Shown here in pieces: positions 24,993-36,070 of a stretch of 64,000 nucleotides of DNA. This DNA is from Anaerolineales bacterium (GTDB taxonomy: Bacteria > Chloroflexota > Anaerolineae > Anaerolineales > Villigracilaceae), in contig JACZJC010000078.1 in the NCBI GenBank assembly GCA_014860745.1, forward strand, positions 1 through 64,000, written 5' to 3'. The notes under the pieces were generated by a model that was not told where the DNA came from, did not search any database, and saw nothing but the letters and a program-made list of their open reading frames with translations. Within the stretch, counting starts at the first letter, position 1; every line of letters begins with the position of its first letter. Both the position numbers and the translations under genes were made by a program.

Positions 24993-25147
24993 ATTGACTT
25001 GGAAACCCGACTCGTCGATCACGCAGAAAAGGATTCGTCGCCATACCCTCTCCCTTGGGAGCCCCACAGGGGTGCTCACCCTTCGGATACGATGTCGCGA
25101 AGGGGCAATCGGACATGCCGATCAATCGTCACAATCGGGGTGAGGTC
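24993..25147. repeat. Copy 1 of a degenerate repeat also found at 27917-28032
   Basis: Shares ATTGACTTGGAAA and CCGATCAATCGTCACAATCRGGRTGAGGTC with copy 2. Confidence 0.75.
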
Positions 25148-27727: not shown

Positions 27728-27850
27728 TTATTTCGCCAGCGGTATTTGAATAAAAAACGTACTATCCGGTAATTTTACCTCGTCATAGCCGGGGCTTCCC
27801 ACCCAGATCTTCCCGCGGTGCGCTTTGACGATTCCCGCCGCGATGGCGTG
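27728..27850 (-). pseudogene. C-terminal remnant of a histidine kinase ATPase domain
   Basis: Manual minus-strand translation AIAAGIVKAHRGKIWVGSPGYDEVKLPDSTFFIQIPLAK*. Confidence 0.7.
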
Positions 27851-27916
27851 TCGAAGTGGTGAGGTTCATTACGATGCAAGCGTCGGATAGAGGAAATGCT
27901 GGCATGCACTCAAACC

Positions 27917-28032
27917 ATTGACTTGGAAATTCACCAAAATCATCAACCGACTAGCTCCCTTCCCATTTGGGAAGGGCGGGGGGATAGGTCACAACCCACA
28001 TACCGATCAATCGTCACAATCAGGATGAGGTC
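27917..28032. repeat. Copy 2 of the degenerate repeat (see 24993-25147)
   Basis: ATTGACTTGGAAA ... CCGATCAATCGTCACAATCAGGATGAGGTC, 28/30 identical to copy 1 over the last block. Confidence 0.75.
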
Positions 28033-28174
28033 CCTGGACTGGGCGATTTAATTTATTCATAATGCTCTATTTACGCGGGCATCCCTCTTGGAACAGACTG
28101 CTAAGCCTATCGCTATATTGATGGAAATAAAAAAGGTGGAATGTTGTTATACGTTAGGATAGCAATTGCTTCTA

Positions 28175-31084
28175 CTATTTTGCAACTTCTAATAGTTGTC
28201 GCCAACTATAATCGCCACGCTCTCCAAAGACATTTATGATTTCAATGGCTTTAGCTCTTGATGTATCATCTGAGTTCATTGCAGATGTAAGGGTTTGTTC
28301 AACACCTTTTTTAGTGTCTTCCAATAAGTAGAACTGTTTACTAGATAAAACTATTTTGTGCAAATTCGAAACAGCTAAGTTTGGGAATTTTTCGGAATGT
28401 TTTCCTAAGAACTCGATAATTTCTTGAGTCTCAAAACCATCAGACTTAAATGTAAGAGTTTGTTCTATAATGGAATTTAGTTCTAATAGATTTACTGGCA
28501 CATTCTTGAGTAACCTGCTGAAACTCGATATTTCCTTTGTAAAGGCACCTTTGTTCTCAGCATCGTTTGCGACTTCTGTCCTCCATTGCCATAAACCCCA
28601 GATTTTTTTCCATGTAACATCTTCGACAGATGGCTGTCGAGATTCTAAAACCTTGCTAAGCCAAAAGTTGCCATGTGAACGCGTTTCATCGTCCGCCATT
28701 TGATAATACAAGCGTAACAGACCATCTCTAGAATTCAATTTGATCATATCTACCAGATATGCTTTTAAGATATGTGTTGCCATCTTTTCATTTGAGGTAT
28801 CAAGTCCATGGCTCTGTTCTGATGCTGGCAATCCCTTGAGAGCTTTTTTATATTGGCTGATTAATTCTGGAAATACATTTGTGTAAACGTCAGAGAATCG
28901 AATATATGCACTCCACGCAGCCTGCCAATATTTTTTCTTACTACTTCCGCTGAAGAATATTCTCTTACTATGTTCAAGAGCCCATTCTTTGTCAAGATAT
29001 ATGAATTGAGGGAAGTACCAGCCATAAATTGAATGAACTGCTAAACTTCGATTTTTTCTTTTGTCTAATTTTTCGGCTAGTGTTTTTTTCAATAAAGGAA
29101 TCATAATAGGCGTTCCCTTATTATCGGCTTCTTGTTTTCGCTTACGTTCGCAATAGAGCCCGTATGAAACCAGACTGTGCATTGCTACTCCATGCAAACA
29201 ATTTAGTGAATGTGTAGCAGGGTCATAACCTTGGGCATCCTCATTATCTGGAAACGGCTCTCGTTGGTGAAGAAGTTCTACGATTATCTTTCCACTTCTT
29301 TCTAGTAAATCATCATTTATAGAGAGCTCTTTTACCCTAAACAATTCTTCGAAAAGTTGCACAATTGCTAATTTTGCTGCTGGAAGTCCTTCCTCAAAAT
29401 CACTTTGTTGATAGCTTTCTGCTTTTTGTTTGACAATATGTTCGCAGACAGCAATGATGCCATCTAACTCGAATTTCTCTTGCTTCTTGACGGCGTTTTT
29501 TATGCCTCTTAGAAAATGTGTGTGATAGATAAACCGCAAGTCATTATTAATAAACGAAGTGGCTTGGTTTGTGTAGTCATTCAGTCTAGCTTGAATATCA
29601 TTTTCCAAGATGTTAGCTAAACCTTCTCTTGACGGCTCTCCAAATGGAGCATTATTTGTTGGCACATACTCAACAAGATATTGAACCACTCCAATAATGG
29701 ATTTCTTGACAAACTCATCAGATTCGATCGGGCTTTTTTCTCCAACAAAGGATACAGTAACTGGCTCATCGTCTGGCTTTGGAGATGGTTCGCCATACTT
29801 CCCAAGCAATTTTTCATAATACTCTTTCTCATCCGCTTCAAGATAAGAGGCTAATGGGGTTAACTCCCTTAACTGCCACGTTTCAATGAGAGTCTTCCTC
29901 TTTTCTTCCTTAGTATTACCAGCGAATCCTTCAGGGTGACCATTCAATATCTCTTCTACAAATCCTGCATCTGGATTTTTCCTATCAAACAGGATCTCCT
30001 CTTTGATAGACTGTGAAAAATTACTATACTGTGCCTCTACAAAGCTATAAAACTCAGATTGACCAGCATGGATGGGATGTTCTCTATAGGCAATGTATGC
30101 TTTTTCAATCAAGTCTTTATATTGTTTACCCCAAGACTGAAGCATATATATGGCTATTCGCCTAAAAATCGAATAATCGCTATCAATGTAACGGGATAAG
30201 ATTAAGTGGACAGCTCTTGGTTTTTGTGCGTATCCTTCAGTTAGTGATGCAATAATGGTGTTTACAAGGATGTTTTTAATTTCATTGTCGTAATTTGTTT
30301 CTGATCTTGGGCTTATCCTTAACCTCCAATAGCTATTGAGTTTCTTGACGTTATCATCGATTCTTGGATCGTGTTCTGAATCGATGGCTTTTATTAATTG
30401 TTCTTCTGCAACGTTCACAACCCCATTCGGGTCCATTTTTGTTAGTACAGGCAAGTTTAGTTGAAGAGCTTGGCTCAGCCAGTAAAAATCATGTCGAGTG
30501 CTTGCAACAAGCTTCCCTTCATCAAATCTGTCCTTAACTTGTACAGGTTCCAATAAGATAGACAAAGTTGCTAAAGCAGCTTGTACTTTACCTCCTTTAG
30601 CAAGATATTCCATGATAATTCCCAATTCACGCGAGAGCATCATAAAATTGGAAAACGGAGTTTCTATCCAACTTTGGAACTTGCCTACGATTTCGGCTGT
30701 AATATCTACAGGAACTTTTAGCAATACTTCAAGTATGGTCCTAAGAGCTCTTGAATTGTCCGTTTCAAGTGATAGAGCAATATCCCTCACAATATCGGGG
30801 AATTTATCCGCCATCCTTTTCAGATATTCGCCAGCATACCACGTTGGCATGCTAAAGTAGCCAGGATTGTTAGGATCTTCAAGCGGAGGTGGAACTTTTA
30901 GAAAGAACTTGTTTTCATGAAGAGGCAATACCCATGCTGGATTTTCCAAATCCATAAAGAAATATCGAGCGAACTTTTCCTCTTCAAGATACTTTATTGT
31001 TTCAGATATTTCGGCTTGGCTAATATCTTCACGCTTCTTAAGCTGTTCCAACCTGTCAGAGGCTTCATAAAACGTGGTGCTCAT
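28175..31084 (-). CDS. Large (969 aa) helical protein of unknown function, coupled to the upstream SIR2-like gene
   Basis: Long uninterrupted ORF; start overlaps the SIR2 stop (ATGA). Helix-rich composition, DUF4020-like by association only. Confidence 0.75.
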   Translation of the reverse strand: MSTTFYEASDRLEQLKKREDISQAEISETIKYLEEEKFARYFFMDLENPAWVLPLHENKFFLKVPPPLEDPNNPGYFSMPTWYAGEYLKRMADKFPDIVRDIALSLETDNSRALRTILEVLLKVPVDITAEIVGKFQSWIETPFSNFMMLSRELGIIMEYLAKGGKVQAALATLSILLEPVQVKDRFDEGKLVASTRHDFYWLSQALQLNLPVLTKMDPNGVVNVAEEQLIKAIDSEHDPRIDDNVKKLNSYWRLRISPRSETNYDNEIKNILVNTIIASLTEGYAQKPRAVHLILSRYIDSDYSIFRRIAIYMLQSWGKQYKDLIEKAYIAYREHPIHAGQSEFYSFVEAQYSNFSQSIKEEILFDRKNPDAGFVEEILNGHPEGFAGNTKEEKRKTLIETWQLRELTPLASYLEADEKEYYEKLLGKYGEPSPKPDDEPVTVSFVGEKSPIESDEFVKKSIIGVVQYLVEYVPTNNAPFGEPSREGLANILENDIQARLNDYTNQATSFINNDLRFIYHTHFLRGIKNAVKKQEKFELDGIIAVCEHIVKQKAESYQQSDFEEGLPAAKLAIVQLFEELFRVKELSINDDLLERSGKIIVELLHQREPFPDNEDAQGYDPATHSLNCLHGVAMHSLVSYGLYCERKRKQEADNKGTPIMIPLLKKTLAEKLDKRKNRSLAVHSIYGWYFPQFIYLDKEWALEHSKRIFFSGSSKKKYWQAAWSAYIRFSDVYTNVFPELISQYKKALKGLPASEQSHGLDTSNEKMATHILKAYLVDMIKLNSRDGLLRLYYQMADDETRSHGNFWLSKVLESRQPSVEDVTWKKIWGLWQWRTEVANDAENKGAFTKEISSFSRLLKNVPVNLLELNSIIEQTLTFKSDGFETQEIIEFLGKHSEKFPNLAVSNLHKIVLSSKQFYLLEDTKKGVEQTLTSAMNSDDTSRAKAIEIINVFGERGDYSWRQLLEVAK

Positions 31085-32094
31085 ATTGGAACTCCAGTTT
31101 CTGTTAAATCTGGATTAACTTTAATGGTGCTAGCTTTTATTTGTGAGTAAATGTTTTTGATGATAGCTTCCATTTCAGAATAGCTACTGCTTGCTAGATA
31201 CCGAAGTATTATTACATCATACTCAGTCTCAATTCTTCTATCTTTTTCCTCTATATATGCGAGATAATTTTTACGCTCTTCTTCTGGAAGTTTGGGGTCG
31301 ATATTGTTTCTCTCTATAGGCAATAATGCGAATTTGGTTGGTGGATTTTTGGGTGGATCAATCGGATACCCCAAAATGAAATTCTTTCTTTTTTTGTACA
31401 ACTCTAAAATGTCAAATAACGTCCGTTCTTCTAAGGCAAAGCCTATAAACACTACGTTATGTACATCAAGAAAGCTAGATAGAAAGTTAGGGAGTGGGCT
31501 GTCGGCGCTGTAAGCTTTCTCGAAATCATCTGCAGTCAATATTAATGATTGCGAAGATTTTTCTACATTTTCTTGAACTATCTTGCCGTGAATATGATAA
31601 AGCCTTCGTGCTTCTAAGTTGCTGGCATTTACGAATGGGAAAACTTGGATCTCATCGTTGGAAAACCCTTTGTTTTGTGTAGCCGCAACATCTTCTATAC
31701 AACTGTCATAATTGGTCGTTACAAACGATTTAAAAGGAATTTGGATAAAATTTTCAAGTAGCTCGGTTGTTTTCTTGAGAGGGAAGTGCCCGTCATCGAA
31801 TCTTCGATACAAGATACTGTAAAAATCGTCGCCGTTCTCGTTTATTATTTTCTTGATTTCCTTTACCCTCAGAGATAAATCATCTATTTTAGTGAGTGTG
31901 TCATCTGCTATCTTGGTTTGATCTGCTAAATAGTCAATGAGTTGGCTAAAGGTTGGGTATCCCGCATGTACTGAGAGTCCTGCTCCGACAAATACCGAGC
32001 AATCTAAACCCAAGCAAAGGTTGATTAGATGCGAGTATGAAGCTCGGTCCCGTTCTCTATGCCAATACTTGTATGTGTTCCCGACTAGATCCAT
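31081..32094 (-). CDS. SIR2-like (NADase-type) domain protein
   Basis: CSVFVGAGLSVHAGYPTFSQLI, KSFVTTNYDSCIED, RRLYHIHGKI, VVFIGFALEE. Confidence 0.88.
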   Translation of the reverse strand: MDLVGNTYKYWHRERDRASYSHLINLCLGLDCSVFVGAGLSVHAGYPTFSQLIDYLADQTKIADDTLTKIDDLSLRVKEIKKIINENGDDFYSILYRRFDDGHFPLKKTTELLENFIQIPFKSFVTTNYDSCIEDVAATQNKGFSNDEIQVFPFVNASNLEARRLYHIHGKIVQENVEKSSQSLILTADDFEKAYSADSPLPNFLSSFLDVHNVVFIGFALEERTLFDILELYKKRKNFILGYPIDPPKNPPTKFALLPIERNNIDPKLPEEERKNYLAYIEEKDRRIETEYDVIILRYLASSSYSEMEAIIKNIYSQIKASTIKVNPDLTETGVPI

Positions 32095-32147
32095 AAGGAA
32101 ATTATACAGCAAGTTTATTTATCGATGATATTGTGTTGCTAAGATGG

Positions 32148-32291: not shown

Positions 32292-32310
32292 CACTGAGCT
32301 TGTCGAAGTG
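32292..32310. repeat. Copy of the widespread CTTCGACAAGCTCAGTG-type dispersed repeat
   Basis: CACTGAGCTTGTCGAAGTG. Confidence 0.5.
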
Positions 32311-32333
32311 AAGCGGGGCACTTCATCCGATAA

Positions 32334-34667
32334 TTATTTCCCACTCACCAACTCCCACAACCGATTCGAATTCAGCGGAATTTCCAAAATCTCAAAATCC
32401 ACATCGTGCAACGCATCTTCCAACGCCTGAGCAAACAGCGGACCAACAGGGATCGCGCCCGCTTCGCCCGCGCCCTTCACACCCATCGGGTTGAGCGGCG
32501 AAAGCGTTACGCCATGTCCCGTATCGATGCGCGGCACATCCAGGCTCGTGGGCAGGTGATAATCCATGAACGTGCCGTTGAGCAGCTGCCCGTTTTCGTC
32601 GTAGGCGAGCCGTTCATAAAAGGCGTTACCGATTCCCTGCGCCACGCCGCCATGGATCTGCCCATCGAGGATCAGCGGATTGATGACCTTGCCGCAATCG
32701 TGCACGACGAGATATTTTTGGATGTGGATCTGCAGCGTCTCAGGATTGACCTCCACGATCATGGCGTGGATGCCGCTGGCAGTGGCGCCTCTTTCTGGAC
32801 CGAAATAGCTGGTCGCTTCCAAACCAGGCTCTGTCCCAGGTTTGACAGCGCCGCGCATCGGATTCGCCATGCCTGCGAGTTCGCCCAATGAAATAGACAT
32901 GCGCGGCAGGTCTTGCACCTTCACCATTCCATCAGCGAGTTCGAGTTCATCTTCGGGCGCGTTGAAATGTTCGGAGGCGAGTTTGAGAATTTTCTTGCGC
33001 ACCACTTTCGCGGCTTCATTGATTGCATTGCCCGCAACGACCGCGCCGCGGCTGGCGAACGTCCCCGCACCCCAATAGAACTGGTCGGTGTCACCTGTGA
33101 CGACGTCGATTTTGTTTACATCCACACCGAGCTGCTCCGCGACGATCTGCGCGAAACTCGTGAAGTGACCCTGTCCCTGCGTGCCAACACCTGTGACGAC
33201 CGAGACGCGTCCACTGCTCATTACTTGTACCTTCGCGCCTTCGTATGGTCCGATGCCCGTGCCTTCCACGTACGCGACGATACCAATGCCAACGTGTTTT
33301 CCTTCAGCGCGTAACTTCGGTTGGATCTCATTGACGAATTTGTGATAACCGATCTTCTCCATCGCTTGATCTAACAACGGTTCATAATTGCCACTGTCAT
33401 ACACAAGCGGAGCAAAATCCTGATAGATGATCTCGTTGTTGTATGGGAACTTATCAGGCGGAATGAAGTTGCGTCGGCGGATTTCGGCGCGGTCAATCTT
33501 CAATTCTTTCGCGGCAATATCCAACGCACGTTCAATGACGAACACGCCATGCTGGCGTCCCGCGCCGCGATACGGTGTGACGATTGTTTTATTTGTAAAA
33601 ACTGCTGTGAATTCACTATAATAATTTTTGATATCGTATGGTCCGAGCAATGTACATGAACTGTTAAGCGGCACGGTCAAGCCATACGGAGCATACGCGC
33701 CCGTATCATGCAGAAAGACATCATGCACGCCGAGAATGTGACCGTCCTTATCGAATGCGATCTCCGCATCGTGGATTTGTCCGCGCTCATGTGTGGTGGC
33801 GACAAAATTTTCGGCGCGGTCTTCGATCCACTTGACAGGTCGATTCAACTTCATCGCCGCCCACGGGACGAGCACTTCCTCCTGATAGAACATCATGATC
33901 TTCGGACCGAATCCCCCGCCGATGAACGGCGCTATGACTCGCACTTGTCTTTCAGATAATCCAAGCATTCCCGCCAACCCGTTGCGGATCACAACAGGAG
34001 CCTGCGTGGTATCCCAGACCGTTAATCGTCCCGCACGTTTATCCCACTCCGCGACGATGCCGCGGTTCTCGATGGCGGCAGCGCATCCGTGCTCGTAAAG
34101 AAAACGACGCTTAATAATTAAGGCAGCATTATCTTTTACTGCTTCATAATCGCCTTTTCTTTGTACAACATTTGCGGCGATGTTTGAGCCAATTTCTTCA
34201 TGAATCAAAGTGCTATCAGGTTGTAGTGCTTTCTCAATATCAACAACGGCTTTAAGAGGTTCATAGTCAATTTGAATATCAGCGAGCGCGTCTTCGGCGA
34301 TATAACGACTCTCCGCCAGCACCATCACTATCGGCTCCCCCGCAAACTTGGCCTTATCCTTGGCAAGCGGAACTTGAGTCTTTTCGTTGAAAACTATGTC
34401 ATCCACAGGCGGCGGCGAAACGAGCAGTGGTCCAGGCTTCCAGTAATCACCCAGATCGTTCGCCGTATAAATAGCAACCACACCTTCACGTAGCAAGGCT
34501 TGCGAAACGTCAATGCTGTTTATCTTTGCATGAGCGTACGGGCTCCGCACGAAGGCAACATGGAGCATGTTCGGTAAATCCACATCGTCCACAAACAATC
34601 CCTGTCCCGTCAGCAGACGCGGGTCTTCGTTACGTTTTATCCGTTCGCCGAAATATCGAGTTGCCAT
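32334..34667 (-). CDS. Xanthine dehydrogenase/aldehyde oxidase-family molybdopterin-binding subunit
   Basis: GQGLFVDDVDLPNMLHVAFVRSPYAHAKI, PFIGGGFGPK, TGDTDQFYWGAGTFASR, MGVKGAGEAGAIP. Confidence 0.95.
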   Translation of the reverse strand: MATRYFGERIKRNEDPRLLTGQGLFVDDVDLPNMLHVAFVRSPYAHAKINSIDVSQALLREGVVAIYTANDLGDYWKPGPLLVSPPPVDDIVFNEKTQVPLAKDKAKFAGEPIVMVLAESRYIAEDALADIQIDYEPLKAVVDIEKALQPDSTLIHEEIGSNIAANVVQRKGDYEAVKDNAALIIKRRFLYEHGCAAAIENRGIVAEWDKRAGRLTVWDTTQAPVVIRNGLAGMLGLSERQVRVIAPFIGGGFGPKIMMFYQEEVLVPWAAMKLNRPVKWIEDRAENFVATTHERGQIHDAEIAFDKDGHILGVHDVFLHDTGAYAPYGLTVPLNSSCTLLGPYDIKNYYSEFTAVFTNKTIVTPYRGAGRQHGVFVIERALDIAAKELKIDRAEIRRRNFIPPDKFPYNNEIIYQDFAPLVYDSGNYEPLLDQAMEKIGYHKFVNEIQPKLRAEGKHVGIGIVAYVEGTGIGPYEGAKVQVMSSGRVSVVTGVGTQGQGHFTSFAQIVAEQLGVDVNKIDVVTGDTDQFYWGAGTFASRGAVVAGNAINEAAKVVRKKILKLASEHFNAPEDELELADGMVKVQDLPRMSISLGELAGMANPMRGAVKPGTEPGLEATSYFGPERGATASGIHAMIVEVNPETLQIHIQKYLVVHDCGKVINPLILDGQIHGGVAQGIGNAFYERLAYDENGQLLNGTFMDYHLPTSLDVPRIDTGHGVTLSPLNPMGVKGAGEAGAIPVGPLFAQALEDALHDVDFEILEIPLNSNRLWELVSGK

Positions 34668-35584: not shown

Positions 35585-36070
35585 CTAGGATTCAAGCCAT
35601 GCAAAATCGGTTTCGTCAAAGAGGATTTCGGGGAAATTTTCTGGGAGGCGTGAGGTGAGATATTCGACAGGGTTTTCCCTCACGGACCTGGCGACTGTGA
35701 TCTCGCCAGAACGTTGACCCTTGAGGCTTGAAACATACAGATTAAGTTGCCGTGCAATTTCCGTCAGGCGCGTTGCATAACTTTTCGAATCGGCAGATGA
35801 CATCAATTCACGAGCCGACGCTCGATTGAGCCAATACTTTGTCTCGAACAAACTGCCGCGAGCATAATACAAAAATTGAATCTTCTTCCCGAAATGAAAC
35901 CGCCCAAACGACTCGGCGATGTTCGCCCCGATTGAATCCGCCGCGCGGGAAATCTGTTTTCCAACTACATCGCGCGGAAATTCATTCCAGCGTTCAGCAA
36001 CCTTGTATATCGCATCCGCAATCTGTTCAACGTTCTTCAACACTCTCACATCCTCCAACGAAGTCGGCAT
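35585..36070 (-). CDS. Four-helix-bundle (S23/IVP-type) protein
   Basis: YKVAERWNEFPRDVVGKQISRAADSIGANIAESFGRFHFGKKIQFLYYARGSLFETKYWLNRA. Confidence 0.88.
   Translation of the reverse strand: MPTSLEDVRVLKNVEQIADAIYKVAERWNEFPRDVVGKQISRAADSIGANIAESFGRFHFGKKIQFLYYARGSLFETKYWLNRASARELMSSADSKSYATRLTEIARQLNLYVSSLKGQRSGEITVARSVRENPVEYLTSRLPENFPEILFDETDFAWLES

Follow-up and report, generated by a model that had tools for sequence, protein, structure and literature searches.

The described systems closest to the locus reported here are defence-associated sirtuins, in which a SIR2 effector is joined to a large helical sensor. DSR2 recognizes a phage tail tube protein through its C-terminal domain, which then opens the pocket of SIR2 (PMC10973363). 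DSR1, according to a review, inhibits replication without killing cells (PMC10952713), and we found no described DSR1 trigger in the open-access PMC literature. The pair of genes described below lies in the window, a 64,000-nucleotide stretch of an Anaerolineales contig (JACZJC010000078.1). An initial annotation had proposed it as a two-gene SIR2 NADase system with a large sensor, possibly of a new type.

The pair comprises the following features:

31081..32094, minus strand: predicted SIR2-like NADase gene, 337 aa from ATG (Pfam SIR2_2, Dsr1 model PDLC04166 and ThsA alignment)
28175..31084, minus strand: partner gene, 969 aa, all-helical, a homologue of the C-terminal (sensor) part of Dsr1
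31081..31099, minus strand: ATGA stop/start overlap with GGAG, read from the sequence as translational coupling

The stop of the SIR2 gene overlaps the start of the partner gene as annotated initially, and we additionally found the GGAG seven bases 5′ of the partner ATG, within the 3′ end of the SIR2 gene. The partner frame is closed just upstream of its own ATG, and both frames are open and intact. On sequence grounds, open frames of 969 and 337 aa with protein-family matches cannot be chance. An in-frame TTG at 32112 provides an alternative upstream start for the SIR2 gene that would add 6 aa. Only a few bases separate the SIR2 ATG from the end of a perfect TATAAT (window 32097-32112), which could point to a leaderless transcript or to a start further on.

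The SIR2 protein keeps the motifs first noted in it, GAGLS, TTNYD (N128) and an HG motif in the form HIHG (H169), and it matches Pfam SIR2_2 at E 5e-19. Alignment with ThsA equates N128 with the asparagine of the ThsA TTNYD motif and H169 with the histidine of its MHG motif. On the PADLOC Dsr1 model PDLC04166, the protein covers positions 26-217. The curated NCBIfam Dsr1 model, NF041818, matches the SIR2 part only, with 35-38 bits against a cut-off of 1400. In the SIR2 tree, the protein lies nearest to ThsA on a long branch, apart from Dsr1. Its structure model had a pLDDT of 34 and was unusable.

The partner aligns with positions 302-1213 of the same PADLOC model (E 1e-65), so the two genes, taken in order, match one Dsr1 chain. 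We also compared a profile of nine partner relatives (A1) with a profile of seven C-terminal parts from annotated Dsr1 and closely related SIR2 proteins (A4). The two were matched with a probability of 99.6% and E 1.3e-24 over 691 columns; controls with reversed or shuffled profiles gave at most 21, against 217 for the real comparison. Sequence identity to Dsr1 relatives is low (19-27%), the NCBIfam Dsr1 model did not match the partner, and searches of Pfam, NCBIfam and the PDB gave no significant match to it. The initial annotation had seen no NTPase, helicase or Argonaute motif in the partner, and the Pfam search, which gave nothing significant, confirms this. Its guess of a HEAT/ARM-like fold agrees with our structure model, which consists of helices only and is of low confidence (pLDDT 52); a fold search with this low-confidence model returned generic HEAT solenoids only. 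The PADLOC model and the profile comparison thus both place the partner in one family with the C-terminal part of Dsr1, and we rejected the suggestion of a new sensor type. A two-gene SIR2 NADase system with a large sensor nevertheless stands as the best reading of the pair. Its parts largely match a described SIR2 system, Dsr1, an outcome that the initial annotation had named as counting against its candidate; the two-gene layout and an apparently separate origin remain as variation.

We surveyed the occurrence of the helical module in three samples that overlap, each of some 400 genomes, and found it in about 40 Chloroflexota genomes of those samples, as well as on several plasmids. Its partners, fused or separate, are SIR2, TIR, a small helical protein and STAND-type NTPases. 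TIR is fused to the module in L028, and an NTPase is fused to it in L052, L053, L056, L115, L116 and the haloarchaeal plasmids L060 and L061. Separate NTPases come with DUF4062 or with a domain weakly resembling an Argonaute-associated REase (L055, L054), and L022 combines a DUF4062-NTPase fused to the module with a SIR2 gene; in one bacterial defence system, DUF4062 has been reported to be a TIR-like NADase (PMC13174449). The commonest partner is a family of small helical proteins with conserved HxRE and AHH motifs, encoded before the module, separate from it or fused to it (L023, L026, L030, L051, L058, L098 and others). R-x4-6-H is not conserved in this family, which we therefore could not confirm as HEPN. 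In one Chloroflexota genus (L105-L108), this small protein has, by eye, an N-terminal FRG-like domain.

SIR2 and the module also occur together on plasmids. On Bacillus plasmids the two form one chain of about 1300 aa; some B. cereus plasmid copies of this gene are annotated in pieces, as if broken, with three pieces in L167 (AP023006.1). The Chloroflexota locus L031 apparently holds a SIR2-module chain with a frameshift break. On the Vibrio coralliilyticus plasmid pOCN014, the SIR2 protein (306 aa, WP_040122581) and the module (942 aa, WP_040122582) are encoded by separate genes with an 8-bp overlap. They cover positions 5-301 and 311-1213 of the PADLOC Dsr1 model, in that order, and are annotated merely as a SIR2 family protein and a hypothetical protein. 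We saw no second Chloroflexota two-gene pair of SIR2 and module in the samples searched, and none of the phage records contained the module. A Streptomyces plasmid copy adjoins TniB and transposase genes.

We consider it likely that the two genes form a DSR1-like anti-phage system in which a sensor-held SIR2 NADase is released by a phage product. In support, the genes are intact and coupled, the catalytic residues are kept, both proteins are homologous to and collinear with Dsr1, the module is reused with other effectors, and the locus bears signs of horizontal acquisition. Weighing against this reading are the low identity to Dsr1 relatives, the failure of the NCBIfam Dsr1 model on the partner and a setting outside any defence island. 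We infer that the 969-aa HEAT-like sensor and the SIR2 NADase effector would be co-produced through coupled translation and would form a complex in which the SIR2 protein is kept inactive. By analogy with DSR2, the partner would most likely hold the SIR2 protein in this state until a phage product binds. The product recognized by the sensor would most likely be a late-made structural protein, whose binding would free or open the SIR2 protein for NAD+ hydrolysis. Loss of NAD+ would then lead to growth arrest or cell death and stop the infection; the outcome for the cell is uncertain, because DSR1 itself is reviewed as not killing cells (PMC10952713).

The pair forms an AT-rich insertion between metabolic genes, at a variable site. 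Its GC content is 38%, against 50-53% around it, and it is lacking at the corresponding site in genus mates; the low GC and this absence are signs of horizontal acquisition. The insertion lies between 27845-27920 and 32310-32334. In the genus mates, the xanthine-dehydrogenase-type gene (32334) is near the quinone-reductase-type genes (to 24867); between the two lie other small cargo and an intergenic piece that matches window 27845-27920. Most genus mates are without the module, and one (G593) has it in a different architecture. Three features were located downstream of the pair:

27845..27920, no strand: intergenic piece conserved in genus mates (L154 and L157, at 83-91% identity), present once in its own genome
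27730..27860 (approximate), minus strand: remnant reading like a histidine-kinase C-terminus (GIVKAHRGKIWVGSPG...), by-eye translation
27998..28032, no strand: direct repeat of 35 bp whose other copy, at 25113-25147, is 91% identical

The pair had initially been placed in an island bounded by gene remnants and repeats, like a defence island. What stands of this picture is the AT-rich insertion with one by-eye kinase-type remnant and one 35-bp repeat pair. The ten neighbours scanned are metabolic (among them AllG, a CoA-ligase-type gene, an amidase, a cyclase and zinc dehydrogenases), and we rejected the defence-island setting. Also amid metabolic genes, at 35588-36070, lies a gene of the 23S rRNA-intervening-sequence protein family (PF05635).

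One genus mate has, at this intergenic spot, what by eye reads as a DUF433/DUF5615 toxin-antitoxin pair (L157:8691-9283), and positions 28060-28160 of the window may be a remnant of such a pair. Seen with this occupant of the spot, a compact two-gene unit could itself be toxin-antitoxin-like, a SIR2 toxin restrained by its partner, with coupled translation suiting an inhibitor and its enzyme and with partner loss or another mobile element, not a phage protein, as the trigger. We regard this as unlikely, as 969 aa is far above the usual size of an antitoxin and the module is permanently fused elsewhere to TIR, SIR2 and NTPases, in the manner of a sensor.

The trees bear on how the two-gene DSR1-like system arose. 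The window module groups with the NTPase-fused modules of L052, L053 and L056 (support 100/97 in one tree and 96 in another), outside the Dsr1 clade, which consists of the Bacillus and Vibrio modules and the TIR-fused L028. Approximately unbiased (AU) tests rejected placement of the window module in the Dsr1 clade (p 0.018 and 0.007), with groups named after seeing the tree and with long branches. The module tree, these tests and the position of the SIR2 protein apart from Dsr1 suggest that SIR2 probably joined the window's module independently of Dsr1. The collinearity of both halves with one Dsr1 chain would be expected of a single-chain Dsr1 in decay, cut in two by a frameshift and perhaps no longer working, and there do seem to be SIR2-module chains with such breaks between frames (L031 and the B. 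cereus L167). We nevertheless think a simple frameshift break quite improbable: the second gene has a ribosome site and a start codon of its own, both frames are intact, the AU tests set the module apart from Dsr1, and Vibrio provides a separate two-gene case. The pair is thus probably a DSR1-like effector and sensor in two genes, not a broken Dsr1. Thoeris, with SIR2 responding to a nucleotide signal, we rejected as very improbable: although PADLOC, the SIR2 tree and the plasmid matches all put the SIR2 protein nearest to ThsA, the window SIR2 is without a SLOG domain, none of the ten scanned neighbours is a TIR gene (TIR genes adjoin most of the SIR2 plasmid loci inspected as ThsA), and the partner is a Dsr1-type module.

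We see about an even chance that bacteria and archaea use the helical module as a general plug-in sensor for SIR2, TIR, DUF4062/STAND NTPase, nuclease-like, FRG-like and undescribed small helical HxRE...AHH effectors, and that the window represents a second, independent joining of SIR2, as a separate subunit. One module is paired with several effector types, and it is without a name in the current Pfam and NCBIfam libraries. A DSR1-type single-protein defence turned into two parts offers a sensor and an NADase that can be purified, mixed and swapped; it would allow tests of which signal the Dsr1 module detects and by what means it gates SIR2. In the open-access PMC literature we found no prior account of either the two-gene form or the module; an earlier description is possible elsewhere.

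Compared with other SIR2 systems, the partner has no helicase, NTPase or Argonaute domain in PADLOC or Pfam searches, in contrast to SIR2-HerA, SIR2-STAND/AVAST and SIR2-Argonaute. Thoeris ThsA has the closest SIR2 domain, weakly so, but the window SIR2 is without the SLOG domain and without a TIR partner. The closest relatives of the window's sensor module are the NTPase-module proteins (L052, L053, L022), which differ in having an NTPase as effector or switch, sometimes with DUF4062, and no fused SIR2. DSR2, also a SIR2 with a large helical sensor, supplies sensor gating as the working model (PMC10973363); neither the partner sequence nor its profile (E up to 10) found DSR2 chains in the PDB, a weak test at this distance. 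The Vibrio coralliilyticus pair is likewise split into a SIR2 gene and a gene for a 942-aa module whose ends overlap, but its module is inside the Dsr1 clade, whereas the window module is outside. With DSR1 (defence-associated sirtuin 1, PDLC04166), the pair shares a SIR2 domain with catalytic N and H followed, in the same order, by the homologous helical C-terminal sensor part. It differs in having two genes with their own starts instead of one chain and a module on another branch, at 19-27% identity. The pair is not a formal DSR1 member, since it is not a single chain, scores below the NCBIfam cut-off and has its module outside the Dsr1 clade. It would work like DSR1 in two pieces, and is probably a two-part version of the known DSR1 alarm system, not a new type.
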